From positions 186,001 through 250,000 of the forward strand of contig JAHDQO010000021.1 of the NCBI GenBank assembly GCA_018433765.1: 64,000 nucleotides of DNA, read 5' to 3'. This DNA comes from Tissierellales bacterium (GTDB lineage: Bacteria > Bacillota > Clostridia > Tissierellales > Sedimentibacteraceae). The position numbers were made by a program, and so were the translations under genes. Under the pieces are notes generated by a model, which had not been told where the DNA came from, ran no database searches, and saw nothing but the letters and a program-made list of their open reading frames with translations. Below are positions 7,577 through 20,433 of the stretch, piece after piece (positions within the stretch are counted from its first letter, which is position 1; the number at the start of each line of letters is the position of its first letter).

Positions 7577-7614
7577 ATGCCGCCTTAATTTGATATTAAG
7601 GCGGCATTTTTAAT
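7577..7614. terminator. Bidirectional intrinsic terminator
   Basis: A perfect 13-bp stem (ATGCCGCCTTAAT / ATTAAGGCGGCAT) with a 5-base loop is followed by TTTTTAATT on the plus strand. It separates the PNPOx-like gene from the converging S-layer-homology gene. Confidence 0.88.
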
Positions 7615-7616
7615 TA

Positions 7617-10037
7617 CTATTCTACTATTAGTTTATACAACTCATACAGCATCTTGGCTGACTCAGCTCTTGTTGCATTATTTAACGGTGCAAATACTTT
7701 ACCTTGTCCATTTGATATGCCATTTATTATTTTCTCTCTTACTGTAAGTGCTACAAATTCTTTTGCCCAATCAGATATTTGGTTATTGTCTTTAAATATA
7801 TTTAACTCTTCAATATCTGCTTTTCTATATGAATTGTTTTCTAATACTTCTGCTATGATTTTAGCCATCTCTTGTCTTGTTATATTGCCTTCTGGATCAA
7901 ATATAGTTCCTGATTTGCCATTTATTAAACCGTTTTTATATGCTGATGCTACTGCATTATAATACCATTTATCTTTTGCTACGTCTGTAAATGGTACTAA
8001 AATACTTTCATCAGTTTTATATTTAAGCATTCTTGATATTAATGCCGAAAATTCTGATCTGGTTATATTGTCTTCTGGTGCAAAAGTATTTGCTGTTTTT
8101 CCATATACTATGTCTCTCTCTGACAAGAAAATTATTTCTTCTTTTGCCCAATGATTTTCAATATCTACAAAATTAATAGCTTCTTCTTTGCTGATAAAGT
8201 ATTTACTAAAATGGTTTGTTTTAAAAACTACTGTCTTTGTTTCAGCATCATATTCTGTTTCCATTTTTTCTATTGTTCCATCGTCTTTTAAGAAGTATAC
8301 TATTATTTTTTCTTCAGTCTTTACTTCTTCGCTATATGGAAAAGTTATTTCAAGATTATTATTAAAGTTGCTTATTCTTTGATCCCCAACTTCAATTTCT
8401 AAATCATATATTGCTGTATTTTTAGGTACTTTAGCTTTAGATGCTGCTGGTACATCTTTTGAATTTAACTTTTGTACCATTAGACTAACTGTTTTACCTT
8501 CTTGTATATCTTTCACTGCATTTATTGGTATATTAAAACTTGCTACTCCTGTTTTTATTACTACATTGTATGCACCTGCTTTTTCTGCCTTTTGCAGCGT
8601 ATCTGAAGGTAAATTTGCTTCTACTTGGTCAGCATCTTTAGTTGGTACTTCTAATGTAACTTTTTTTACTACTCTATCTGAACCCTTTATATCATTATCT
8701 TTTAATGCCTTTTTAAATTTGTCTACTTCATTTAAGTTTTTAAGTACTTCTTTAATATCTTTAGTTGATATTTCTGCTGTTACCTTTTTACCTTGTTTTC
8801 TCACTCGATTATCAGATATTTTATATTTGCTCAATATTTCTGCTGTATATTTAATAAATTCATCTGATTTTTTATCAAGCATTTCTTTATCTCCGCTGTT
8901 TAATTTATTTATCATGTTTGAAATATTTTTCAGCATATCAATTGACATAGTTGTTATTTGTGATTTACTTTTTATTTTATTTAATATTTTTTGAGTATTA
9001 CCTATGTTATCAACTGCTAAATCTACTATCTGTGACTCATTAGTTTTTTCATTACCTAATAATTTATAAATAATATTAAAAATTTGTTCATTTTGTTCAA
9101 ATATGTTTATTGCTTCTTCTTCATCTTCAATATCATTAATAGTTTTTGCTAATAAGTCATTTAAATTATCTAGTTCTTTTAATGCTTCTTTTGCTTTGCT
9201 TGATGTATTAATATTTTTTACTAAATCATTTAATTCTTTTATGGATTCGTTTATATCTTGACTGTTTCCTATATCATTAGGATTATCATATCCACCTACT
9301 GTAAACCAAAAATATATTTTATCTCCATCTTTTATAGCTTGATCTTGTACTCCAGATGCTAGAGAATTATTTATATTATACATCCATCCTGACGATGCTT
9401 TATACTCTGATTCTCCGTCACCATCTATCATAACAAAATACAGTCCCCAGCCATAATCTTGAAAATTATAACTTATATGATTTTCCTCTAATGCTTTAAC
9501 CATTGCATGTGCAGCTTTTGGTTCTTTGAACTTGTCTTCATCCCAATCATTTGAAGGATTAGCAGAAGAACCAGTTCCATCTTTTAAATATGGTTCAAGA
9601 CTAAATATATCAGTAGTTACTTCATAGTTATTAAGAATTTTTTTACCTTTGTACCCTTGTATTGTTACGTATACAGTTACTTCATCAGTAGATGGTGTAT
9701 CTCCTCCTGTTTCACCATCTTTATTTATTTTAAATGTTTTGCTTTCGTCTTCAATTTTAATTGATCCATCATATACTTTACTGCTCTCATATGGAAAGCT
9801 GAAATTAAATATACCATTTTCATCTGTCTTAATAGTATTTAGATACTCTATATTATTATCATCTAATATTTTTATGCTTACTGGTGAATTAAAGTATGTT
9901 GAATCACCTTGAATATCTGCTGCACTATCATTTAGGTTTATATCCAAATTAATACTAGCAAATGCCTGCGGTACTATTAATACTATCGCTAAAATCAAAG
10001 ATAAAAGTACTTTTACAATAAATTGACTTACTTTCAT
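7617..10037 (-). CDS. DUF4430 (transcobalamin-like) protein with three SLH wall-anchoring domains
   Basis: An 806-aa secreted protein. A signal peptide occupies about residues 1-28 (KVLLSLILAIVLIVPQAFA). A DUF4430 domain follows at about 120-250, containing SSGWMYNINN and GDKIYFWFT; this fold forms the C-terminal beta-domain of intrinsic factor and transcobalamin. The long middle is helical and lysine/asparagine-rich. Three S-layer homology domains at about 635-806 (NHWAKEEI, DKWYYNAV, SDWAKEFV) should hold it to the cell wall. The ATG at 10037 has a GGAGG site; upstream in-frame ATGs lack one. It starts 38 bases after the alpha/alpha-barrel gene and is probably co-transcribed with it. With the cobalamin riboswitch upstream, I infer surface corrinoid binding. 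Confidence 0.82.
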   Translation of the reverse strand: MKVSQFIVKVLLSLILAIVLIVPQAFASINLDINLNDSAADIQGDSTYFNSPVSIKILDDNNIEYLNTIKTDENGIFNFSFPYESSKVYDGSIKIEDESKTFKINKDGETGGDTPSTDEVTVYVTIQGYKGKKILNNYEVTTDIFSLEPYLKDGTGSSANPSNDWDEDKFKEPKAAHAMVKALEENHISYNFQDYGWGLYFVMIDGDGESEYKASSGWMYNINNSLASGVQDQAIKDGDKIYFWFTVGGYDNPNDIGNSQDINESIKELNDLVKNINTSSKAKEALKELDNLNDLLAKTINDIEDEEEAINIFEQNEQIFNIIYKLLGNEKTNESQIVDLAVDNIGNTQKILNKIKSKSQITTMSIDMLKNISNMINKLNSGDKEMLDKKSDEFIKYTAEILSKYKISDNRVRKQGKKVTAEISTKDIKEVLKNLNEVDKFKKALKDNDIKGSDRVVKKVTLEVPTKDADQVEANLPSDTLQKAEKAGAYNVVIKTGVASFNIPINAVKDIQEGKTVSLMVQKLNSKDVPAASKAKVPKNTAIYDLEIEVGDQRISNFNNNLEITFPYSEEVKTEEKIIVYFLKDDGTIEKMETEYDAETKTVVFKTNHFSKYFISKEEAINFVDIENHWAKEEIIFLSERDIVYGKTANTFAPEDNITRSEFSALISRMLKYKTDESILVPFTDVAKDKWYYNAVASAYKNGLINGKSGTIFDPEGNITRQEMAKIIAEVLENNSYRKADIEELNIFKDNNQISDWAKEFVALTVREKIINGISNGQGKVFAPLNNATRAESAKMLYELYKLIVE

Positions 10038-10075
10038 GCCTACCTCCTTCTTTATATTAACCATTGACATTAATC

Positions 10076-13000
10076 TCATTGTTCAATGTTAATTATTATT
10101 ATGTTATTGCTTAACACTTTCATATCTTCAATATTATCCCATACAAAGGCTCTTATTTTATAAATTCCTTCTTCAGGTATATTAAATCCTACAGACATTT
10201 CAACTTCTTCTTTTGAATTTATATTTCTACTTACATAACCGTATTTAATCATTTTACCGTTATTATCATACAATGCAGCAATAACTGTTGCTTCTAAAGC
10301 TTCATCATTATTATTAGTTGCTTGTATTTTTATTCTAGCATCATCGCCATTACTAAATGCTTCGTTTCCTACTCTTACAATTTCAAATAGATTATCTTCA
10401 GTTGGCTTTTCAATTGGATTGTTTACAAAATCATATATTGAGCCTTTTTCATCAAGATAATATAAATATTGTTCTAATGCATATATTATTTGTTCTGTTG
10501 ACAGCATAATGCTACCTGCATTATCACATTGCCAGTTAAAACTTCCATCTTCATTTTGAAGACTTAAGATATAATCGATAACATTGTTTCCGTTTTTAGT
10601 AAATTCTTCAGATGTTGGATCTTTTTTATTTGCAGTTATTGCCATTAAGACTTGAGCCGAACTATTTGAATTACCTCCAAATCCTCCATTTGAATCTTGA
10701 ACTAAACTTATTTTTTCTAATGTTTTATTTATAACATTTGTTACTTCTTGACTGTAATTCTGATTATAGTATTTTCCTAATGCTGTCATATTGAAACATG
10801 CTCCATCATTAAACCCAAAATCACCGCTTAATGCAAATCCTCCGTCTGCTTCTATTCCTGTTAATAAGTTGTTTACTAAATCAGTTCTTGTGAATCCTGC
10901 ATCTGCTGATATTTCATAATTTACTGCATCTAATGCTAATACTCCAAATGGTAAAGTATACTGGTTAGTGTCAGTCTTTAAGTTTAGTTCTATAAGTTCT
11001 TCATATAAATTATGTCCATTTATATCTTCTGGATTACCACCAGAAGCTAAAGTACCCAGTATAAATTTTCCGTATTGTCCAGCATTTTTTTCAGGTAAAT
11101 TATTATTTATGTATTCTAAGTAACTGTTTGGAACGTTTTTGCCTGATCTAGCTATTGCAACTGACTGCCAATGGCTTTCACTGTTAAATTGTCCTAATAA
11201 CCAATCAGTTCCTTCGTCTATTGCTCTTTCAACTTGAGTTCTCAAGCTTTCCACTACTACTACTGTTCTTGTTACTTCTACAGCTGCATTCCCTGCGTTG
11301 TCTGAAACATTGTAATGAATAATATATGATCCTAATTCATTTATATCTATATTTTCTACTTGTTGTCCATTTTTTGTATATGTTATTTGTACTTGTAATT
11401 CTTTGTCTACATTGTCTGTTACTAATACTCCTAGATCTTCGTATGTTTTTCCCAGTGTAACTTCTACTTTTTCTGACCCTTTTAATTCTATTACTGGTGC
11501 TTCTGTGTCCTGCATGTCATTTATTGATAATTCACGGTACATTGATTTGTTATTATCTAAATCAACTAAAGCTGCAAGAACCATTCCCGTTGCTTTATCA
11601 TTATAATCTTCATAGCTAGATTTGTAAGAATCATAAATAAAATGGTCATCAACCTTAAATGACATCATAGCGTCTACAATAGTTCTTCCATCTTTTGTGA
11701 AATCTTCTCCTAAAGGATTGATACCTGCTGCAATAAGTGCTTGAATAGCTATTGCATCATATTCAGAAACTTCACTAGCTAAACTATTATCTCCATTGTC
11801 ATAGCTAAATCCTCCTGTTTCCAATTGCATACTCTTTAAATCTTCAATGCAAGCATTGATTTTATCTTCTACTCCATTGATATTTTTATGGTTTGACAAT
11901 GCTATTATAGTGCTTGAAACAGTATATATATCTTTTTTAATACTATCGTCATATTTTGTAATTAAATTTCTTACAGCTTTATCAACATCGTAATTACCAG
12001 CTGCCATATCTAAAGCAATAATTGCATAAGCTTGAGAACTTATACTAAAATCATCTTCTATCTTAAATTCACCATTATCATCTTGTGCATCTTGAAGTTC
12101 TTTTACTTTATTCTTTCCATTATAGTCACTAGGATTTTCTCCAGCTGCAATGATTCCCATTATATCTTTAGCAATCATTTCTACATCATTATCATATACA
12201 ATAATTATTCTATCTTCTTCATCTTTTCTTAATTCAAGCCTTGAAGCTATTTTAGATTTATCAACTCCTATAATATTAAGTGCCATAGCTTGTAAGTAGT
12301 TATAGTGTTGATCATTTTTATAATAATCCTTTACTTCCTTAATGATATTTTTAATAATATCAGATGGATCTAATTGAGGCTCTACATCTTTATACATAGA
12401 TTCACCCTCATAAAGATCTGCTAATGCTGCAAAGGCTCTTTCTGTAGAAGGTATATCAACGTTATTGCCTAATAATTTACAAGCCCTAAAGGTTCCATCT
12501 TCCATTTGATCATGTATCATTGAACTTACTAAATTTCCTTCAACTTTTTTCCATTCACTAGATAAGGGATCTATATCATTTGCCATAAGTGCTTGAATGA
12601 CAACTGCTGTATACTGTGGTGTATCACCACATCCCATCATATCAAAGCCGCCAGTATCTGATTGTTCTGCTTTCAAATATTCTATAGCCGAATTAATTTT
12701 ATCAGTAACCTTATCAATATCTTTATGTTTAGAAAGTGCTATAAGTGCCCATGCTGTTTCATCTATACTTTCAAAATTATTTCCTTTCAACATATTTAAT
12801 AGAGCATTAACTGCATTTTCAACATTGTATTCTGCATGTGCCATATCAAGTGCTATAATTGAATAAGATTGTTTATATACATTTGATTTCTTACCTTCTT
12901 CTATAAACTCTCCAGCCTCATTTTGTAAACTAACAAGTTTTGAAACGTAATCTGTTTCTACATTGCTTAATACTTGTCCTGAAGCAATTATACCCATAAT

Positions 13001-15679
13001 ACTTTCAGCATAGGAAAGCACATTTTCTCCATCTTCTATCTTCAATTTTCCTTGTATATCTATATAGTCACTATTTAAATTATTGCTTGAATGATTTATT
13101 GCTAAAGCTTCCTGCCAGCTGTAATATACATCTATGTCTTGTAAAGATGCATTTTTTCTTTTTTCTGTTGTTGTTAGATAATTTCTTAATTTTGATAATG
13201 AATCTTTTATTATTCCTTGGTAGCTTACAGCATCTTGTACATTTTGATAAGAAGATTTTCTATTTTTTAAATCAGTTAAAGCAATGAATGCCTGCTCTGT
13301 AGCCTCATCTTTATAAAATAATTCGCCATAATCATTATTATAAATAAAACAATTAGATTTTTTAAAAGTTAATAAAGCATCTAAAACATTTTTTTCATTT
13401 TTTATCCAATTAGAATCAGAAAGAGGGTCTATTCCATTAGCAACTAGTGCTGATATCACGTAAGAAATCGCTTGACTGTCCTCACCAAATCCATCAACAG
13501 ATTCAAATCCTCCATTTTCTAACTGTTTAGATTGAATAATGCTAAGCTTATTATTTATAAAATCTTCTACTCCTTCTACATCTTTATGATTTGCTAATGC
13601 TGTTACCGCAACTGCTAGTATTGCAACACTACTTTTTCCTGCATTATCGGTCATAATATATTTTACAGCTTTATCCTTATTGTAATCTGCACCAGCCATA
13701 TCAAGTGCTATAACTGCCCATTCAGTTTGTTCTGCAATGCCTATCTTAAAGCTTCCATCTTCTAACTGTCCATTTTTCAATAAATCAACATATTTACTTG
13801 CGTTTTGCCCAGATGACAAAAGACCAATAATATTCATTGCATATGGAAGAGTTCCTTCTGATTCATTTAATACAAACTTTTCAGCAATGTCTTCAACATC
13901 TTCATCAATATCATTACTTGTTACATTTAATCCCAATGTTTCAATAGGTCTATAAAAAGCTGGGTGCGTTTTAAAGTTTGAATCCGTTCTAGTTTCCATA
14001 GATGTTAAGTAGTCTCTTATTCCATCTATTGCATTTTCTAATATTTCATCATAATCCTTCTCTGTATTAGGAGTTTCTAAAACAAATCTATCATACATAG
14101 ATATTCCGCAGTATACATCTGATAGTGCTGCGAAAGCAAATTGGGTTGCTGCCACATCATCATATCCATAACCCTTTCCTTCTACAAACTCAAAGCCTTT
14201 TCCTTCTACTTTACAAGCAATCAAAGCATCAACTAATGTTCTTTGGCCTTTCTTCCAATCGTCTGAGGATAAGTCTTCTTCTGCCATAACTAAAGCTTGT
14301 ACTACTGGCCCAGTTGAATATGGACTATTTCCCATATCATAATAATCATATCCACCACTTCCTAGTTGATGAATTCCTAAATATTGAATTGATGATGTAA
14401 TTAATTCTTCTACTCCATCAATATCTGTATGTTTTAACAATGCTCTCAAAGCATATGCCGTAGTAGTTACATCTTTATAATAGCCATCTTTTGAAAAGTT
14501 TATAAGTGCATTGACTGCTTCTTCTACATTATATTCTGCTTTAGCCATATCAAGTGCAGTGATAGAGTCTGAAAGAGCAGTAACAGAATCTACATCATTT
14601 GACCCAATAACAAATATTCCATCTTCATTTTGAGCATTTACTAGACTATTTACATAAAAACTTGAATCTTGTCCAGTTGCCAATGAACCCATAATATTTT
14701 CTGCATAAGCTGCCGCATTGTCACTTTCATTAATCTTAAATGTTTTAAAATAATCATTTTCATCATTCATCAAACTGTTATAAGCCATAACTTCCATAGC
14801 ATTTAAATCAGTTTTATTCTTAAACATTTCCTTTAATTCATTTATTATATTTTCTAACTCATTAGTATTACTTCCTTCACTTTCTAATACTAAATGCTGT
14901 CTTACTATTTGAGGAAAGTCATTATCTTTTGATATTTCTACATTATAAGTGCCGGATTTATTTAACGTAACCGAAACTTCTCCATTTTCATCTGTTTTAT
15001 ATAAACTCTCGTTACCTATTTTAATGTTAACATTATTTATAGGCTTGTTACCTACTTCATTGTTAAATACTTTTATTATAAATACTGCTCCATCATTTTC
15101 TACTGTTACTTTAGGTATTTTAGTTGCTAAGTTTGCTCCTGAATATGAGCACATGTAAAATACTAGTTCATCTGTATTTGATTCTCCATTTACATCTGTT
15201 AAACCTTCGAATTGATCTACTCCTACACTAGGTAGAATAATTTCTCCATCCTTAAATTTAACATAATAGCACCAGCCCTGATTTTGGGACTGATTTTCAC
15301 CTAAAATTCCAGTTATGTAATATCCCATTAAAGAGCTGCCTTTACCTTCAATATTTTCTTCTCCTACAGCTGCTTTTAAAAGGTCAAGAGGACGTGTTTC
15401 ATCATTGAAATCATAACTTATTTGATCGTTATACAGCGTTTCACTAAATCCTTCAACCCTCACTTTTACCTCTACCATTGAATCTGTAGTAGACTTAACA
15501 ATTTCTTCACTTGAATCATTAGGTGATAAAGCTATTTCTGTTTCTAAATTCTTAAAATTTTCATTTTCTTGTTGTGCTTCAGCAAATATATTTGTAGGCA
15601 TACCCGGAATAAATATACTGCTAAGCATAATGGCTATAACTAAAATAATACTAAATACTTTTTTTGATTTTGTATTCAT
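10076..15679 (-). CDS. Giant secreted transcobalamin-like protein: DUF4430 plus five prenyltransferase-type alpha/alpha-barrel modules
   Basis: A 1867-aa secreted protein. A signal peptide (about 1-36, ending NIFAEA) is followed by a DUF4430 domain at about 65-165 (QGWCYYVKF, ELVFYMCSY) and a short Ig-like segment. Four homologous alpha-helical modules of roughly 230-260 residues follow, each with IMG-[IL]-[IL]A[ST]GQ-like, DMAxAxYNV, ALxxHKDI and ETGGF/NGGF motifs typical of the prenyltransferase/squalene-cyclase alpha6/alpha6 fold. Then come a DUF5011-type Ig domain (APVIELKG, LGSYIIHYNVSDNAGNA) and a fifth barrel module. Animal transcobalamin and intrinsic factor combine exactly these two folds. 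ATG 15679 has GGAG seven bases upstream; a GTG at 15685 is too close. No anchor of its own; the downstream SLH protein may supply one. Cobalamin binding is inferred. Confidence 0.82.
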   Translation of the reverse strand: MNTKSKKVFSIILVIAIMLSSIFIPGMPTNIFAEAQQENENFKNLETEIALSPNDSSEEIVKSTTDSMVEVKVRVEGFSETLYNDQISYDFNDETRPLDLLKAAVGEENIEGKGSSLMGYYITGILGENQSQNQGWCYYVKFKDGEIILPSVGVDQFEGLTDVNGESNTDELVFYMCSYSGANLATKIPKVTVENDGAVFIIKVFNNEVGNKPINNVNIKIGNESLYKTDENGEVSVTLNKSGTYNVEISKDNDFPQIVRQHLVLESEGSNTNELENIINELKEMFKNKTDLNAMEVMAYNSLMNDENDYFKTFKINESDNAAAYAENIMGSLATGQDSSFYVNSLVNAQNEDGIFVIGSNDVDSVTALSDSITALDMAKAEYNVEEAVNALINFSKDGYYKDVTTTAYALRALLKHTDIDGVEELITSSIQYLGIHQLGSGGYDYYDMGNSPYSTGPVVQALVMAEEDLSSDDWKKGQRTLVDALIACKVEGKGFEFVEGKGYGYDDVAATQFAFAALSDVYCGISMYDRFVLETPNTEKDYDEILENAIDGIRDYLTSMETRTDSNFKTHPAFYRPIETLGLNVTSNDIDEDVEDIAEKFVLNESEGTLPYAMNIIGLLSSGQNASKYVDLLKNGQLEDGSFKIGIAEQTEWAVIALDMAGADYNKDKAVKYIMTDNAGKSSVAILAVAVTALANHKDVEGVEDFINNKLSIIQSKQLENGGFESVDGFGEDSQAISYVISALVANGIDPLSDSNWIKNEKNVLDALLTFKKSNCFIYNNDYGELFYKDEATEQAFIALTDLKNRKSSYQNVQDAVSYQGIIKDSLSKLRNYLTTTEKRKNASLQDIDVYYSWQEALAINHSSNNLNSDYIDIQGKLKIEDGENVLSYAESIMGIIASGQVLSNVETDYVSKLVSLQNEAGEFIEEGKKSNVYKQSYSIIALDMAHAEYNVENAVNALLNMLKGNNFESIDETAWALIALSKHKDIDKVTDKINSAIEYLKAEQSDTGGFDMMGCGDTPQYTAVVIQALMANDIDPLSSEWKKVEGNLVSSMIHDQMEDGTFRACKLLGNNVDIPSTERAFAALADLYEGESMYKDVEPQLDPSDIIKNIIKEVKDYYKNDQHYNYLQAMALNIIGVDKSKIASRLELRKDEEDRIIIVYDNDVEMIAKDIMGIIAAGENPSDYNGKNKVKELQDAQDDNGEFKIEDDFSISSQAYAIIALDMAAGNYDVDKAVRNLITKYDDSIKKDIYTVSSTIIALSNHKNINGVEDKINACIEDLKSMQLETGGFSYDNGDNSLASEVSEYDAIAIQALIAAGINPLGEDFTKDGRTIVDAMMSFKVDDHFIYDSYKSSYEDYNDKATGMVLAALVDLDNNKSMYRELSINDMQDTEAPVIELKGSEKVEVTLGKTYEDLGVLVTDNVDKELQVQITYTKNGQQVENIDINELGSYIIHYNVSDNAGNAAVEVTRTVVVVESLRTQVERAIDEGTDWLLGQFNSESHWQSVAIARSGKNVPNSYLEYINNNLPEKNAGQYGKFILGTLASGGNPEDINGHNLYEELIELNLKTDTNQYTLPFGVLALDAVNYEISADAGFTRTDLVNNLLTGIEADGGFALSGDFGFNDGACFNMTALGKYYNQNYSQEVTNVINKTLEKISLVQDSNGGFGGNSNSSAQVLMAITANKKDPTSEEFTKNGNNVIDYILSLQNEDGSFNWQCDNAGSIMLSTEQIIYALEQYLYYLDEKGSIYDFVNNPIEKPTEDNLFEIVRVGNEAFSNGDDARIKIQATNNNDEALEATVIAALYDNNGKMIKYGYVSRNINSKEEVEMSVGFNIPEEGIYKIRAFVWDNIEDMKVLSNNIIIINIEQ

Positions 15680-15705
15680 TTCCACACTCCTTACTTATAC
15701 GTTAA

Positions 15706-15743
15706 TAAATAAAAAAAGACACACCTTAATTAAATGATGTGCC
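15706..15743 (-). terminator. Intrinsic terminator between the DUF2292 gene and the surface-protein genes
   Basis: On the minus strand an 8-bp stem (GGCACATC / GGTGTGTC, with G-U pairs) and a 10-base loop is followed by seven T residues. It lies between the DUF2292 stop and the ribosome binding site of the giant surface protein, so transcription into that gene needs read-through or a local promoter. Confidence 0.72.
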
Positions 15744-15766
15744 TCCAGTTTTCTGGTCAGCTTTCA

Positions 15767-15916
15767 TTACAATTTAATAGATTTTTTTATTTGTTCTACT
15801 CTTATTGGTTTTTTGTCTTGTATAATAATTTTTATTTCGCCATACCCGATACTTCTCATTAGCTTAATTAGTTTTGTTTCTTTTTCACACAACTCTAGTT
15901 TAACTTGAGACTTCAT
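15767..15916 (-). CDS. DUF2292 (YezD-like) small protein under cobalamin riboswitch
   Basis: A 49-residue protein. After a charged helical start it has RSIGYGEIKIIIQDKKPIR and VEQIKKSIKL, the pattern of DUF2292/YezD small proteins (YGSVxIxIQDGxVxQIExxEK). The function of the family is unknown; members are often found near sulfur, metal or cofactor genes. AGGAGAG precedes the ATG at 15916. It is the first gene behind the cobalamin riboswitch and its terminator at 15941-15970, and has a second terminator after it, so it should be expressed when cobalamin is scarce. Confidence 0.78.
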   Translation of the reverse strand: MKSQVKLELCEKETKLIKLMRSIGYGEIKIIIQDKKPIRVEQIKKSIKL

Positions 15917-15940
15917 TTAAACACTCTCCTATTTAACCCC

Positions 15941-15970
15941 AATTAAAAACCCTACCTTGTTTAGGTAGGG
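15941..15970 (-). terminator. Riboswitch expression-platform terminator
   Basis: An 8-bp GC-rich stem (CCCTACCT / AGGTAGGG) with a 5-base loop is followed on the minus strand by TTTTTAATT. It lies 80 bases downstream of the cobalamin aptamer and before the DUF2292 start: the off state of a transcriptional riboswitch. Confidence 0.85.
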
Positions 15971-16050
15971 ACATTGCACACTAAAGCCACAATTTACAAT
16001 AGCTTGTCTTATTTAACATCCCCTTTCTACGGAAGGTTACTGTAATTTTC

Positions 16051-16188
16051 TATTAGGCAGGTCTCCTGACTTGTGCATCAACGTTTTTCTTCGCCTTCCC
16101 GTTTAAACAGTGGCTTTTTGAAGAATTACTCCTCACTTACAGTGGCCGGACCGCTCAGGATTTACACCTGATTCCCTTTAGCCTAATA
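16051..16188 (-). ncRNA. Cobalamin riboswitch 1 (upstream of DUF2292 and surface proteins)
   Basis: Read on the minus strand, the element has a P1 stem (TATTAGGC / GCCTAATA) closing the aptamer, the GGGAATCAGGTGTAAATCC region, GCCACTGTAAGTGAGG, a GGGAAGGCGAAG segment and the hallmark GTCAGGAGACCTGCC B12-box at its 3' end. These are the conserved parts of the adenosylcobalamin-type riboswitch. With the terminator at 15941-15970 it should switch off downstream transcription when cobalamin binds. Confidence 0.95.
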
Positions 16189-16216
16189 AACTATTAAGTT
16201 ATTTAATACATGTTAT

Positions 16217-16245
16217 ATGATATATGTGTTTAATTATTTTGTCAA
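16217..16245 (-). promoter_or_regulatory. Sigma-A promoter of the riboswitch 1 transcript
   Basis: A consensus TTGACA (16245-16240) and TATCAT (16222-16217) are separated by exactly 17 bases on the minus strand, about 30 bases before the aptamer. Confidence 0.8.
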
Positions 16246-16264: not shown

Positions 16265-17050
16265 TTATACCATTAATTTATCTCTATTAGAACTTATCGG
16301 TGTTACTATCGGAACATCATCATCGCCAATTGCAACCTTCGCATTTACTCCATAAATATAACTTATCATATCAGAAGTTATAACAGAAACAGGTTTTCCA
16401 TATGAATAAATTCCTCCCTTACCATCAAGTATAATAACATTATCAGCATACCTAGCAGTAAGATTAAGATCATGTAGTGTAACAATAGAATTAATTTCCC
16501 TCTTTTTTGTTATATATCTTATTAAGCTAATAATCTCTAGCTGATTTTGGAGATCTAAATTATTAGTAGGTTCGTCCATTAACATTAATTTAGGAAACCT
16601 AACCATTAATTGCGCTATAGAAACCATTTGTTTCTGTCCTCCGCTTAGTTCATTAAGCTGCCTAAAGGCTAAATCATCAATACCTAAATCTTCTAGCACT
16701 TTTAATATACTAGATTTTTCTTCTTCACCTACTCTCCAAGATAAAGAATGAAGTTTACCTAAAAGAACTGTTTCAAATACTGTTAAAGCAGAGTTTGAAG
16801 TATTATCTTGAGGAAGATATCCTATTAATTCAGCAATGTCCTCTTTTCTTATACTATTTCTATCTTTTCCATTTAGATATATTTGTCCTTTAGATTTTAA
16901 AACACCAAAAATACATTTTAATAATGTTGATTTACCTGCAGCATTTGGTCCTATAACCACATTAAACATTGGTTTTACTTTTAAACTTATATTATTTAAA
17001 ACAGGAGTTGAATTATAACCAAATGTTAAGTTTTCGATTTCCAAATTCAT
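16265..17050 (-). CDS. Corrinoid/iron-complex-type ABC transporter ATP-binding protein (BtuD/FecE-like)
   Basis: A 261-aa cytoplasmic ATPase of the FecE/BtuD group. Walker A (GPNAAGKST, about residues 34-42), the LSGGQKQ signature (about 139-145), Walker B (LMLMDEPTNNLD) and the switch histidine in VTLHDLN are all intact. It energises the permease encoded immediately upstream (4-base gap). It is the last gene of the riboswitch-2 transcript (methyltransferase, binding protein, permease, ATPase). Cobalamin control suggests a corrinoid, cobalt chelate or other B12-related substrate rather than iron; that is inference from regulation. Confidence 0.9.
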   Translation of the reverse strand: MNLEIENLTFGYNSTPVLNNISLKVKPMFNVVIGPNAAGKSTLLKCIFGVLKSKGQIYLNGKDRNSIRKEDIAELIGYLPQDNTSNSALTVFETVLLGKLHSLSWRVGEEEKSSILKVLEDLGIDDLAFRQLNELSGGQKQMVSIAQLMVRFPKLMLMDEPTNNLDLQNQLEIISLIRYITKKREINSIVTLHDLNLTARYADNVIILDGKGGIYSYGKPVSVITSDMISYIYGVNAKVAIGDDDVPIVTPISSNRDKLMV

Positions 17051-17054
17051 AACT

Positions 17055-18104
17055 TCACACCCTCTTCCTTAAAATTAATGATACAAAAAAGGGTACTCCA
17101 ATAAATGATGTAATAATTCCTATAGGAAATATAGCTCCTGGTATAATTATTTTACTTCCTATAGATGCAGCAGAAAGTAATAAAGCTCCTCCAAGAGCAG
17201 AAACAGGAATAAAAAATCTCTGCTCTTCTCCTACAAGCATTCGTGCAATATGAGGTCCTGCAAGCCCAATAAAACCTATTGTACCTACAAAACAAACTGC
17301 CGTTGCTGTAAGAAGCGAGACTATTATAATTACTTTTAATTTTATTTTCTCAACATCAACACCTAAGCTTTTTGCTTTATCATCTCCCAAGCTTAAAGCA
17401 GTAAGTTTCCATGAATCTTTTGCAAATAAGTAAATGCTAACTGTGAATACTATTGTAGTAATTCCAGCTTTCAACCAAGTAGTCCTTGTAAGACTGCCAA
17501 ATAGCCAAAATACTACAGTCTGTACCTGCTGTTCTGTTGCGATATATTGAAGGAACGCTGTCAGTGCATTAAAAAGAAATAGTAATGCAATACCAAGAAG
17601 AACTATAATTTCAGTTCTTGCTTTCCTTAATTTTGATATGAAATAAATTATAAGTGAAGAAAACAAAGCAAAAACAAATGCATTGATAGATACAATGAAC
17701 TCTTCAGCACAAGGTATTACACCTACTCCTAAAACTAAAGCAAGTGCAGCACCAAATCCTGCTGCTGCTGAAACACCAATTGTATATGGGCTTGCAAGTG
17801 GATTACCTAATATGGTTTGCATTTCTGCACCTGCAATACCAAGGGACGCACCAACAACTACAGCCATAACTGCCACTGGTAATCTAATAGAGCAAACTAT
17901 AAAGTGCGTATTATTATCAACTGAACTGCTGAAAAATGCTGATATAACATCATTTATTGAAAGCCAAGCAGGTCCTGTTAAAATATCAATTGAAAATGTC
18001 ACTACAAGTGCTATAGACATTACTAATAATATCTTAATTTTATGTTTTATCATGTCATTATATATTGCTGTTGAGCGTTCATTAATATTTATCATATTTT
18101 TCAT
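17055..18104 (-). CDS. FecCD/BtuC-family ABC transporter permease
   Basis: A 349-aa permease of the FecCD/BtuC family with about nine to ten membrane segments. The conserved GASLGIAGAEMQTILGNPLA motif (about residues 85-104) and GLAGPHIARMLVG near the C-terminus are present, the latter being the loop that contacts the ATPase. The ATG at 18104 abuts the stop of the binding-protein gene, indicating translational coupling. It should form a homodimeric pore for the substrate delivered by the lipoprotein at 18105-19244. Most close family names say iron-siderophore or cobalamin; the upstream cobalamin riboswitch favours the latter. Confidence 0.9.
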   Translation of the reverse strand: MKNMININERSTAIYNDMIKHKIKILLVMSIALVVTFSIDILTGPAWLSINDVISAFFSSSVDNNTHFIVCSIRLPVAVMAVVVGASLGIAGAEMQTILGNPLASPYTIGVSAAAGFGAALALVLGVGVIPCAEEFIVSINAFVFALFSSLIIYFISKLRKARTEIIVLLGIALLFLFNALTAFLQYIATEQQVQTVVFWLFGSLTRTTWLKAGITTIVFTVSIYLFAKDSWKLTALSLGDDKAKSLGVDVEKIKLKVIIIVSLLTATAVCFVGTIGFIGLAGPHIARMLVGEEQRFFIPVSALGGALLLSAASIGSKIIIPGAIFPIGIITSFIGVPFFVSLILRKRV

Positions 18105-19244
18105 TTATTTTACACCTGTTATCCAAGTTCCACTATAATCTATTACAGCAAATTTGTTATGAAATTCTTTTAAATTTTCTTCTGGATTCAAGTCTTTAAA
18201 TTCTTCTGGATAAAACCATTTAGCAAATGCTTGTAATGGAAAGAAGTTATATATTTGTATACAATGACCCATTGATACACCATAAACTTTATTGTTTTTT
18301 ACTGCATCAAGTGATTCCCATCCTTGTCTATTAAGATGACCTTTAAGAAGTTTTCTTGCTTCATCAGCTTGTACATAATATCCAAATCTTAATGCTTTTG
18401 GTGCACGTTCTGATGAATAACCAGCAATTACAATATTATCAGGATTATTGTTTATAAGATATTCAGGTGCTATATCCCCCATCATACCTTTTACAATATC
18501 TTTAGCAATATTTTCTCCACCTGCTAGTTCAACAATTTTACCCCAAGCAGCATTGCCATACGTTTTTCCGTATTCTGAAGGACCTCTTCCGCCATTTTCT
18601 ATATATACTGTTGGCTTAGGTGTTTTAATATTCTCTAATTTTGAAAAAACTATATCAACTTGATTATTAAAATAGTTTGAAATTTCTTCAGCTCTTTTTT
18701 CTTTTCCTAATATTTTACCCATCAATAGTATACTTTTAGGAGGTCCTTCAATAGGATTTATCGAAAAATCAATGATTGCTACTGAAATGCCCGCATTTTC
18801 TAAAGTGCTAATAGTATCTTCAGCAGTTTTAAGAAACCACGATTGAATAAATACTACATCAGGATTTAACGAAATAATTTTTTCTACATTAAATGATCCA
18901 TCAGAGAAATGTCCAATATCTGCAATATCTTTTATTTCTGGAAAACTATCTGTATATTTATTGTATATATCTTTATCAAACTTTATAAGATCAGATCCTA
19001 TACCTACAAGCTTGTCTGTAAACTTATCACCTTCAATTGCAGCAAATTCTTGTATAAATCTTCCGTTTGCCAACACTACTTTTTCAACTGGTCCTTTTAT
19101 TTCGATTTTTCTTCCAGCTAAGTCAGTAACTATTATAGTTTGCTTTTCTGATACATTTACCTCTTTAGAACAAGAACATGCTATAATACTCAAAACTAAA
19201 CATAAAATTATCAATATTAAACTAATAGATTTTCTTTTATTCAA
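18105..19244 (-). CDS. ABC transporter substrate-binding lipoprotein (BtuF/FecB-like)
   Basis: A 379-aa class III solute-binding protein. An N-terminal signal with lipobox (LSIIAC) anchors it to the membrane. The fold shows the family sequence TDLAGRKIEI, LNPDVVFIQ (end of lobe 1) and HLNRQGW followed by AVKNNKVYGV in lobe 2. A TTG at 19244 is preferred as start because GGAGG lies eight bases upstream; the TTG at 19259 would bury that site. It sits between the methyltransferase and permease genes behind a cobalamin riboswitch. It is the obvious recipient for a corrinoid captured by the surface proteins at 7617-15679, though it could bind another metal chelate. Confidence 0.87.
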   Translation of the reverse strand: MNKRKSISLILIILCLVLSIIACSCSKEVNVSEKQTIIVTDLAGRKIEIKGPVEKVVLANGRFIQEFAAIEGDKFTDKLVGIGSDLIKFDKDIYNKYTDSFPEIKDIADIGHFSDGSFNVEKIISLNPDVVFIQSWFLKTAEDTISTLENAGISVAIIDFSINPIEGPPKSILLMGKILGKEKRAEEISNYFNNQVDIVFSKLENIKTPKPTVYIENGGRGPSEYGKTYGNAAWGKIVELAGGENIAKDIVKGMMGDIAPEYLINNNPDNIVIAGYSSERAPKALRFGYYVQADEARKLLKGHLNRQGWESLDAVKNNKVYGVSMGHCIQIYNFFPLQAFAKWFYPEEFKDLNPEENLKEFHNKFAVIDYSGTWITGVK

Positions 19245-19276
19245 TTTATTATCCTCCAACCATTATTTTTTTACAG

Positions 19277-20098
19277 TTATTTTTTCTTCCACCAAATCAT
19301 AGCATTACATGTTTCTTGTATTAAAGAATATTTTCCATCATCTTCGATTAAAGTAGTTTTCAAATAATCACTAATAATTTTACTAGATTCTGGTGTATGT
19401 AAATTAAAAGTATCCTGCCATTTGTTTACTGCTTGTTCAAAATTTTCATACTGCTGCTTTAATAAACCTGTTTCAATATTAACATTCGCAAATATTCCCA
19501 TTTGATAAAGAATATTATAAATATAAATGTAGTCAGGACTTCCTTTAAATTCTTTACCATATAGTAAACGCCATAAATCTTTATAGTTTCTTGAACCAGC
19601 AATTCCACCTGCAAAAGTAAAAATGCATACTCCTTCCCTTGCAGTGTTATGCATTTTTAAAAGAGCATCTTGCATATCAAACATTGCCATGGAATATGAT
19701 GCGATTACTATATCATGTTCTTCAAAATCTTTGTTTAAAATAACATCTTCCCACTTCTTCTGAATGAATGACACATTATTTAAATTTTCAGATTCTACTC
19801 TTATTTTAAGACTTTCCATCATATTCTCTGAAGGTTCGATGGCAGTAACATACTTAGCATATTCGGCAAAAGGTACTGCCATAATACCTGACCCTGCACC
19901 AACATCTAAAATTGTATATTCTGGATCAATAGAAAGCCTATCTATTACTTTTTTTGCTCTCCAATCTTGTCTTGGCATTTTACTAAATCCCTTGGCTCTT
20001 TTACTCCAAAATCCTACTGAGTCTTTCCACCATTCTAAAGAAGAGTTATTCAACGCTTCTTGCCACATCACATTCCAATTTAAATCTTGTACACTCAT
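19277..20098 (-). CDS. Class I SAM-dependent methyltransferase
   Basis: A 273-aa Rossmann-fold methyltransferase. Motif I (ILDVGAGSG, about residues 58-66), the acidic ribose-binding residue in VTAIEPSENM and a post-I/II region (DIVIASYSM) are visible. It is the first gene of the riboswitch-2 operon, with GGAGG before the ATG at 20098, and precedes a BtuFCD-like transporter. Methyltransferases in this position are not corrin-ring enzymes by obvious sequence. It might modify the transported ligand or a chelator; its substrate is unknown. Confidence 0.82.
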   Translation of the reverse strand: MSVQDLNWNVMWQEALNNSSLEWWKDSVGFWSKRAKGFSKMPRQDWRAKKVIDRLSIDPEYTILDVGAGSGIMAVPFAEYAKYVTAIEPSENMMESLKIRVESENLNNVSFIQKKWEDVILNKDFEEHDIVIASYSMAMFDMQDALLKMHNTAREGVCIFTFAGGIAGSRNYKDLWRLLYGKEFKGSPDYIYIYNILYQMGIFANVNIETGLLKQQYENFEQAVNKWQDTFNLHTPESSKIISDYLKTTLIEDDGKYSLIQETCNAMIWWKKK

Positions 20099-20189: not shown

Positions 20190-20247
20190 CTCCCATCTTA
20201 CAGATCTTTTATACTCAAAAAAATTACCCTATTTTTTTAGTTTTATC

Positions 20248-20414
20248 TTTAAGGCAGGTCTCCTGACTCACAGGTCATTCTCCATCCTTCCTTCCCGCCC
20301 ATATTATTATAAATATTAGCAGTGGTATCATAGGATTTCGTCTCTGTTTACAGTGTTGGGTACGTTTCGGATTTACACCGAATTCCCTATTCTCCCTTAA
20401 AAGGGCACCTTAAA
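20248..20414 (-). ncRNA. Cobalamin riboswitch 2 (upstream of methyltransferase-ABC operon)
   Basis: On the minus strand the element has P1 (TTTAAGG / CCTTAAA), a CCCTTTTAAGGG helix, GGGAATTCGGTGTAAATCC, a CACTGTAAACAGAGACG segment, GGGCGGGAAGGAAGG and the GTCAGGAGACCTGCC B12-box. These are all core cobalamin-riboswitch parts. It is followed by the terminator at 20152-20189 and the four-gene transport operon ending at 16265. Confidence 0.94.
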
Positions 20415-20433
20415 AATATATATGAAATTTTAT

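Follow-up and report, generated by a model that had tools for sequence, protein, structure and literature searches.

A cobalamin riboswitch-headed unit encoding predicted secreted barrel and DUF4430 proteins in a Tissierellales bacterium: candidate surface capture of corrinoids

The DNA examined here, referred to below as the window, is a stretch of 64,000 nucleotides from the 4.19 Mb draft genome of a Tissierellales bacterium (GenBank assembly GCA_018433765.1, contig JAHDQO010000021.1, positions 186,001 to 250,000). On its minus strand a promoter-like site, a cobalamin riboswitch aptamer and a terminator are followed by a DUF2292 gene and by the genes of two predicted secreted proteins, P2 and P1. 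A preliminary description of this DNA proposed that the two proteins form a wall-anchored trap for vitamin B12 (cobalamin), built from the two folds of the animal carriers intrinsic factor and transcobalamin and made when the vitamin is scarce. The unit consists of the following features.

16245-16217, minus strand: promoter-like site, TTGACA-17-TATCAT, 11/12 positions in agreement (consensus scan)
16039-16201, minus strand: cobalamin riboswitch aptamer (RF00174), 111.2 bits, E 5e-27
15970-15950, minus strand: intrinsic terminator directly 3' of the aptamer, 8 bp stem followed by TTTTT
15767-15916, minus strand: DUF2292 small protein of 49 amino acids, Pfam 26.4 bits (cut-off 22)
15718-15743, minus strand: second terminator-like hairpin with T run, between DUF2292 and P2 (fold of 15690-15760, z -3.65)
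10076-15685, minus strand: open reading frame of P2, predicted secreted, with a divergent DUF4430 domain, five alpha/alpha barrels and an immunoglobulin (Ig)-like domain before the fifth
15137-15490, minus strand: divergent DUF4430 domain of P2, approximately residues 66-183 (hhalign and blastp)
14054-14779, minus strand: P2 barrel module 1, residues 303-544 (hidden Markov model, HMM; alpha/alpha toroid in an AlphaFold2 model)
13214-13918, minus strand: P2 barrel module 2, residues 590-824 (HMM)
12359-13096, minus strand: P2 barrel module 3, residues 864-1109 (HMM)
11519-12235, minus strand: P2 barrel module 4, residues 1151-1389 (HMM)
11255-11491, minus strand: Ig-like domain of P2 (PF16403), 44.2 bits (cut-off 27)
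10406-11155, minus strand: P2 barrel module 5, residues 1511-1760 (HMM)
7617-10079, minus strand: open reading frame of P1, predicted secreted, with a DUF4430 domain, a linker and three SLH domains
9300-9509, minus strand: DUF4430 domain of P1, Pfam 44.1 bits (cut-off 23.8), 47.7 bits in the whole-genome scan
7644-8171, minus strand: three SLH domains of P1, Pfam 110.6 bits over 3 stretches
7577-7607, listed for both strands: terminator-like hairpin after P1 (terminator scan)

Both cobalamin aptamers of the window (111.2 and 114.6 bits, against a gathering score of 31.5) cover the full RF00174 model, positions 1-189. The terminator at 15970-15950 is presumed to be the OFF switch of the P2/P1 riboswitch. 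A terminator scan of both strands returned 2 terminator-like sites against 0.1 expected in shuffled sequences, the other site being on the plus strand within the aptamer. Because shuffles average 3.9 promoter-like sites, the count of such sites is no evidence in itself. The promoter, riboswitch, terminator and DUF2292 gene named in the preliminary description were all recovered. The hairpin at 15718-15743 is absent from the list of the terminator scan, its loop exceeding the limit of that scan, and no sigma-70-like promoter was found behind it by consensus scan. Given this hairpin, expression of P2 may require read-through or a second control. The case for DUF2292 as part of the system is weakened by the orthologous locus L075, described below, which leaves too little space for it between a terminator (seen by eye) and the start of a P2-like gene.

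For P2 the ATG at 15679 (10076-15679) was preferred over the listed GTG at 15685. By inspection, the N-termini of P2 and P1 contain a hydrophobic stretch of the signal-peptide type. P2 had been described as a DUF4430 domain with five barrels. The five modules were found by HMM and are homologous to one another, modules 1-4 deviating in the alignment from the consensus of other barrels. The DUF4430 domain was matched neither by Pfam nor, at E<=10, by a family HMM built in this analysis. It was recognized by profile-profile comparison (hhalign with a two-sequence profile, probability 86.6, E 4.5e-6; the barrel and SLH controls for the same region gave probabilities of 0.4 and 0.1) and by blastp alignment of the N-terminal region to DUF4430-bearing stretches of four related loci (L068, L072, L078 and L086). 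A Pfam scan of whole P2 returned Prenyltrans at 37.5 bits and Cobalamin_bind (PF01122) at 31.2 bits (cut-off 25), with the best stretches in module 5. The PF01122 match was reported by the whole-protein scan and missed by the whole-genome scan. Whole P2 had no match among PDB sequences at E<=0.1.

The likely start of P1 is the ATG at 10037 behind GGAGG (7617-10037), in an open reading frame listed from 10079. As first described, P1 carries a Pfam-recognized DUF4430 domain, which InterPro names transcobalamin-like C-terminal domain, and three SLH domains, the latter related to S-layer SLH domains of known structure (E 3.9e-15). No LPxTG-type motif or N-terminal lipobox was found in P1; its hydrophobic N-terminus and three SLH domains mark it as an SLH wall-anchored protein. 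P2 has no SLH domain by HMM and no LPxTG-type motif or lipobox by motif scan, so a recognized wall anchor is present on P1 only. The wall anchoring proposed earlier is upheld for P1.

Upstream on the same strand lies a unit resembling the cobalamin importer BtuFCD.

20236-20427, minus strand: cobalamin riboswitch, 114.6 bits
20154-20194, minus strand: terminator-like hairpin (hairpin scan)
19277-20098, minus strand: S-adenosylmethionine-dependent methyltransferase, first gene of the unit (Pfam/NCBIfam)
18105-19259, minus strand: BtuF-like substrate-binding lipoprotein, Peripla_BP_2 69.1 bits, lipobox pattern
17055-18104, minus strand: BtuC/FecCD-like permease, FecCD 281.6 bits
16265-17050, minus strand: BtuD/FecE-like ATPase (Pfam/NCBIfam)

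The importer had been placed 1 kb from the P2/P1 unit; in fact the BtuD-like gene stops at 16265, only 63 bp before the P2/P1 aptamer. That it has a cobalamin riboswitch of its own was correct. Like the BtuFCD cobalamin ATP-binding cassette (ABC) importer, the unit combines a binding protein, a permease and an ATPase of the respective Pfam families in a single riboswitch-headed operon, and its genes fall under every curated NCBIfam Btu cut-off (BtuC 213.4 of 334, the best permease match; BtuD 126.5 of 281; BtuF 32.6 of 234). Since no BtuC, BtuD or BtuF cut-off was reached, we infer the substrate from regulation; the riboswitch supports the identity of the unit as a cobalamin importer.

Ten cobalamin riboswitches above the cut-off, plus two weaker ones, were found in the genome. 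The ten precede genes for CobT (DBI_PRT), CbiK, two CobQ/CbiA-type amidotransferases and a BtuF-like lipoprotein, the methyltransferase-BtuFCD-like unit, genes for NrdD and a NifH-like protein, P2/P1 and another locus, designated C13 (L015). All 7 barrel-profile matches and all 4 DUF4430 matches of the whole genome (E<=0.001) sit in the P2/P1 and C13 loci. In C13 the riboswitch is followed by a barrel+DUF4430 protein (1343 amino acids), a DUF4430+SLH protein (638), a barrel+SLH protein (551), a short DUF4430 protein (258), EcfT and a protein in which two ATPase domains are fused to an S-component.

Linkage of these domains to cobalamin riboswitches recurs in related genomes. DUF4430 was present in 51/99 genomes of the class (120 matches), and the matches were grouped into 79 same-strand clusters. 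At least 32/79 clusters have a same-strand RF00174 match within 20 kb upstream (at least 29 of them within 5 kb), and at least 3/79 have an opposite-strand one within 20 kb on either side, among the matches listed. At least 27 of the 51 genomes hold at least one riboswitch-linked cluster. One cluster counted as unlinked, G009:C40, does have a cobalamin riboswitch.

A set of 17 loci (L075-L086 and L092-L096) from 12 genomes was chosen because their barrels resemble those of P2, among 60 genomes of the order and blind to riboswitches; L075-L086 were hand-picked among the higher-ranking matches and L092-L096 were added. Outside the 17 stand genome G031, which was fetched in another set and has a riboswitch in both its loci, G142:C8, which matches only P2 residues 1694-1859, and matches confined to the Ig-like or C-terminal part of P2. 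RF00174 was found in 11/17 loci (L075, L076, L077, L078, L079 twice, L080, L081, L083, L086, L092 and L093 twice) and was not found in L082, L084, L085, L094, L095 and L096. An EcfT homolog is also present in 11/17 (L077, L078, L079, L081, L082, L084, L085, L086, L092, L093 and L096), and 15/17 loci have a riboswitch, EcfT or both. The remaining Rfam matches in these loci are two CRISPR repeats, one purine riboswitch and one guanidine-I riboswitch.

A larger set of 34 loci comprised the window, L015 and L055-L086. Within L055-L074, 18 loci came from riboswitch-linked DUF4430 clusters, and L055 and L056 were chosen by a PF01122 match and both proved to bear riboswitches. A barrel or DUF4430 gene lies within 500 nt after 28/35 riboswitches of this set, a figure biased by the 18 of 34 loci that were chosen knowing the riboswitch linkage. 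A barrel is present in 34/34 loci, including the 18 chosen for DUF4430 and riboswitch only. By hand count a short DUF4430 gene adjoins EcfT in 18/34. A profile of six linked S-components, from loci with EcfT, was compared with the PDB and matched 6fnp_A at E 9.6e-17; the next match was FolT, the folate S-component, at E 0.086. 6FNP is the vitamin B12 transporter ECF-CbrT according to the sections seen of its description (PMC5997447), and chain A appears from its sequence match to be CbrT itself.

The arrangement of P2 and P1 is itself repeated. L075 encodes a P2-like protein with five barrels and 60% identity over P2 residues 68-1393, and its order is riboswitch, terminator (by eye), P2-like gene and a gene for a DUF4430+SLH protein. 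In L080 a DUF4430+barrel protein is followed by a DUF4430+SLH protein, under a riboswitch. Because both loci show the pair, the succession of a barrel protein devoid of SLH and a DUF4430 protein anchored by SLH can be called recurrent. Elsewhere the domains are joined in one chain. The single riboswitch-headed gene of L055 (1395 amino acids) combines PF01122 (51.4 bits), DUF4430 (49.9 bits) and three SLH domains, with no Prenyltrans match listed at E<=0.001, and L056 also has PF01122 above the cut-off (45.8 bits). Among loci reached through weak PF01122 matches, L090 and L088 have barrel, DUF4430 and SLH in the order of L055, L091 has barrel and SLH in one chain with DUF4430 in the next gene, and L089 has partial barrel matches only. 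L062, a locus of G031, has three cobalamin riboswitches in 14 kb; they precede a barrel gene, a barrel+DUF4430+SLH gene and an EcfT gene, and the third of them scores only 34.6 bits.

Taken together, these results make it probable, at roughly 0.7, that P2 and P1 are a B12-repressed surface system that captures corrinoids and feeds them to the BtuFCD-like or ECF importers. The occurrence of the same domain pattern beside B12 importers in related genomes points to a widespread and largely undescribed form of surface B12 capture. At low intracellular cobalamin the riboswitch would let transcription through the terminator; aptamer and terminator were observed, and the switching is deduced from them. 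P2 and P1, with signal sequences recognized by inspection, would then be secreted when cobalamin is scarce. P1 would be fixed in the wall by its three SLH domains and display a DUF4430 domain of the transcobalamin beta type, and P2 would supply five barrels of the transcobalamin alpha-type fold together with its own divergent DUF4430. Passages on transcobalamin report that cobalamin binds the beta-domain first and that the alpha-domain then closes (PMC11107200). By analogy, the corrinoid may be bound by DUF4430 and a barrel may close over it, either within P2 or between P1 and P2. Pairing of P1 with P2 and attachment of P2 to the wall belong to this proposed scheme. The corrinoid would finally pass to the BtuFCD-like ABC transporter, to the ECF transporter of the C13 locus or to both. 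The five barrels probably raise the capacity of P2 or its breadth for different cobamides, and some of them may be inactive.

Structure prediction gave a mixed answer to the earlier proposal that the domains resemble intrinsic factor. P2 residues 62-548 were modelled with AlphaFold2 from a seven-row alignment, so that module 1 is the only barrel modelled. The model confirmed barrel 1 as an alpha/alpha toroid, with a predicted local distance difference test score (pLDDT) >=80 in 23/26 ten-residue blocks of model residues 211-470. Foldseek ranked drimenyl diphosphate synthase 1st (E 3.3e-5), intrinsic factor 3kq4 12th (E 2.4e-4), rat transcobalamin 23rd and human intrinsic factor 2pmv 25th. The likeness to intrinsic factor holds for the barrel, and the fold alone singles out no cobalamin carrier because the closest fits to the model are terpene cyclases, ahead of transcobalamin and intrinsic factor: VIA-align gave class II terpene cyclases Z 22.4, transcobalamin 7qbg 18.0 and intrinsic factor 2pmv 17.9, and GH76, GH105 and epimerases reached about 18-19.

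These Z scores are among a number of results that weigh against corrinoid capture. The DUF4430 part of the P2 model is unreliable, and a model of the P1 DUF4430 domain from 3 sequences has a pLDDT of 37. Scanned singly, 28 barrels gave SQHop_cyclase_C in 20, Prenyltrans in 15 and Cobalamin_bind in only 2; module 5 of P2 alone scores 17.6 bits for Prenyltrans and 18.1 bits for Cobalamin_bind, both under the cut-off. PF01122 is above its cut-off in 1/99 genomes of the class (3 with matches) and in 0/299 genomes of the phylum (2 with weak matches). The barrel profile had 25 PDB matches at E<=0.01 (squalene and terpene cyclases, prenyltransferases and alpha-2-macroglobulin-type proteins), with no intrinsic factor or transcobalamin among them, and a profile of the most PF01122-like barrels reached, at E<=0.1, squalene-hopene cyclase only and neither carrier. 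For the DUF4430 profile the sole PDB match up to E 1 was transcobalamin-2, at E 0.65. P2 is devoid of a recognized anchor, and its DUF4430 precedes the barrels, the reverse of transcobalamin. Among the matches listed, 47/79 DUF4430 clusters have no RF00174 within 20 kb upstream; contig ends may account for some of these, and other uses of DUF4430 for others. L094 and L095, on contigs of 5.0 and 9.3 kb, each hold a barrel gene and a DUF4430 gene and show neither riboswitch nor EcfT. The ortholog locus L075 gave no BtuFCD match, so the adjacency of BtuFCD may be peculiar to the present genome. Finally L087 (Anaerophilus nitritogenes, 9854-16097), the single locus from a genome-contig scan with P2 and its ortholog, encodes barrel+SLH, barrel and DUF4430+SLH proteins after MoxR-DUF58-BatA-VWA genes, and the 16 kb examined contain no riboswitch. 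Since barrel, SLH and DUF4430 genes occur there in another context, a universal B12 role is argued against.

The context of L087, which does not look B12-related, would suit general adhesion or wall-binding modules that are induced by B12 shortage, for example for attaching to B12-producing neighbours or surfaces, and that hold no corrinoid. SLH and Ig-like domains are characteristic building blocks of surface proteins, and the toroid fold is common to many unrelated proteins. Yet all 7 barrel and 4 DUF4430 matches of the genome are in riboswitch-headed loci, and adhesins would not be expected beside EcfT, where the short DUF4430 gene was found in 18/34 loci; six S-components from such loci match 6FNP. 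We consider adhesion improbable. The cyclase-like fit of barrel 1 (Z about 22 for drimenyl diphosphate synthase and squalene-hopene cyclase, about 18-19 for GH76, GH105 and epimerases) would instead favour enzymes, terpene-cyclase or glycosidase-like, that act on a surface polymer or lipid and share the regulation of B12 uptake. DxDD is the acid motif of class II cyclases. Barrels as class II terpene cyclases were rejected on the absence of this motif from P2; it was found in 4/60 barrel modules surveyed. P2 is moreover predicted to be secreted, and we know of no cyclase with a layout of tandem barrels and DUF4430. An enzymatic role is accordingly given very little credence.

A less distant alternative is that P2 and P1 scavenge corrinoids through DUF4430 alone, the barrels being spacers or partner-docking modules. 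Isolated transcobalamin domains bind cobalamin, the beta-domain included, and some organisms own a beta-domain only, as stated in passages of PMC11107200. The short gene seen repeatedly beside EcfT encodes a lone DUF4430 protein, and the deviation of P2 modules 1-4 from the barrel consensus would suit a passive role. Set against this are the barrel in 34/34 loci, including the 18 chosen for DUF4430 and riboswitch only, and Cobalamin_bind above its cut-off in whole P2, L055 and L056. We regard binding by DUF4430 alone as rather unlikely. Capture of corrinoids by both domain types remains our preferred reading: cobalamin regulation, the two domain types, the P1 anchor and recurring linkage to riboswitches and to ECF transporters with a 6FNP-like S-component all lend partial support to the trap first proposed, although the fold does not identify a cobalamin carrier by itself.

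Intrinsic factor, transcobalamin and haptocorrin share with the window proteins the two domain types, an alpha/alpha toroid (from the barrel 1 model) and DUF4430 (by Pfam in P1 and by profile in P2). They differ in that the window proteins are bacterial and riboswitch-headed, P1 is wall-anchored and has no barrel, and P2 has the barrel fivefold; the sequence link of the bacterial barrels and DUF4430 to the animal carriers is weak in PDB searches. Neither P2 nor P1 has the alpha-then-beta order in one chain, and for this reason they were not classed as members of the transcobalamin family. The order is found in their relatives, the 1343-residue protein of L015 and the 1395-residue protein of L055. 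Because PF01122, DUF4430 and SLH co-occur in riboswitch-headed L055, it can be conjectured that Clostridia and relatives have true wall-anchored transcobalamins, in which barrel and DUF4430 clamp the corrinoid before handing it to CbrT-like or BtuFCD importers, and that animal intrinsic factor, transcobalamin and haptocorrin share ancestry with them or descend from them. We hold this extension only tentatively and think it somewhat doubtful.

Parts of this picture have precedents. DUF4430 as a transcobalamin component has already been published, as excerpts of PMC4350170 indicate. A table in PMC9963975 names the Lacticaseibacillus rhamnosus DUF4430 protein K8Q211/LGG_02295 'Additional lipoprotein component of putative cobalamin ECF transporter', so a DUF4430-ECF link already exists as annotation; the text passages of the same source give its function as unknown and its gene as near rtpR, an adenosylcobalamin-dependent reductase gene. 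By description this 14.3 kDa lone domain is similar to what the short DUF4430 genes next to EcfT encode in the loci surveyed here, and those passages mention neither a functional test nor a barrel, an SLH anchor, a riboswitch or a comparison with transcobalamin (PMC9963975). The six S-components of the linked loci are homologous to 6FNP, whereas the window unit adjoins BtuFCD-like and not ECF genes; in the portions seen of the ECF-CbrT paper, 'transcobalamin' occurs only in the reference list (PMC5997447). In Bacteroides, the surface lipoprotein BtuG and the B12-binding BtuH capture corrinoids before import and are encoded with B12 transport genes, according to extracts of PMC6143338 and PMC8941943. 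The likeness noted here is one of role; BtuG works with the outer-membrane transporter BtuB, in contrast to the SLH-anchored or secreted proteins of the window. In the open-licence literature, covered mostly as titles and abstracts, no account was found that links barrel/DUF4430 proteins of the cell surface to cobalamin riboswitches and importers of B12.

Extracellular cobamide capture by Gram-positive-type bacteria is little known, and DUF4430, for all its presence in 51/99 genomes of the class, is still a 'domain of unknown function' in Pfam. If corrinoid capture is correct, the DUF4430 family would gain a function and known B12 importers an extracellular part. It would also be relevant to how anaerobic communities compete for B12 and to where the animal B12 carriers came from.

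Mobile elements and further riboswitches yielded several minor observations. With the barrel and DUF4430 alignments as queries, no relative was found on viral contigs. Three unannotated phage records from human faeces ('Bacteriophage sp.', MT837027, MT839226 and MT835727) contain DUF4430-like stretches with 40-48% identity to a clostridial DUF4430 protein, and plasmids gave 1 DUF4430 record, adjoining EcfT. In L078 the purine and guanidine-I riboswitch matches overlap at 14279-14475, downstream of the ECF/DUF4430 locus. In the genome of the window, the cobalamin riboswitch at C17:10151-10337 (locus L009) is followed directly by the NifH-like gene and an open reading frame with a lipoprotein-like start. 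Two sub-threshold cobalamin riboswitch matches are adjacent on the same strand at C35:96888-97009 and 97013-97204, possibly forming a tandem riboswitch.

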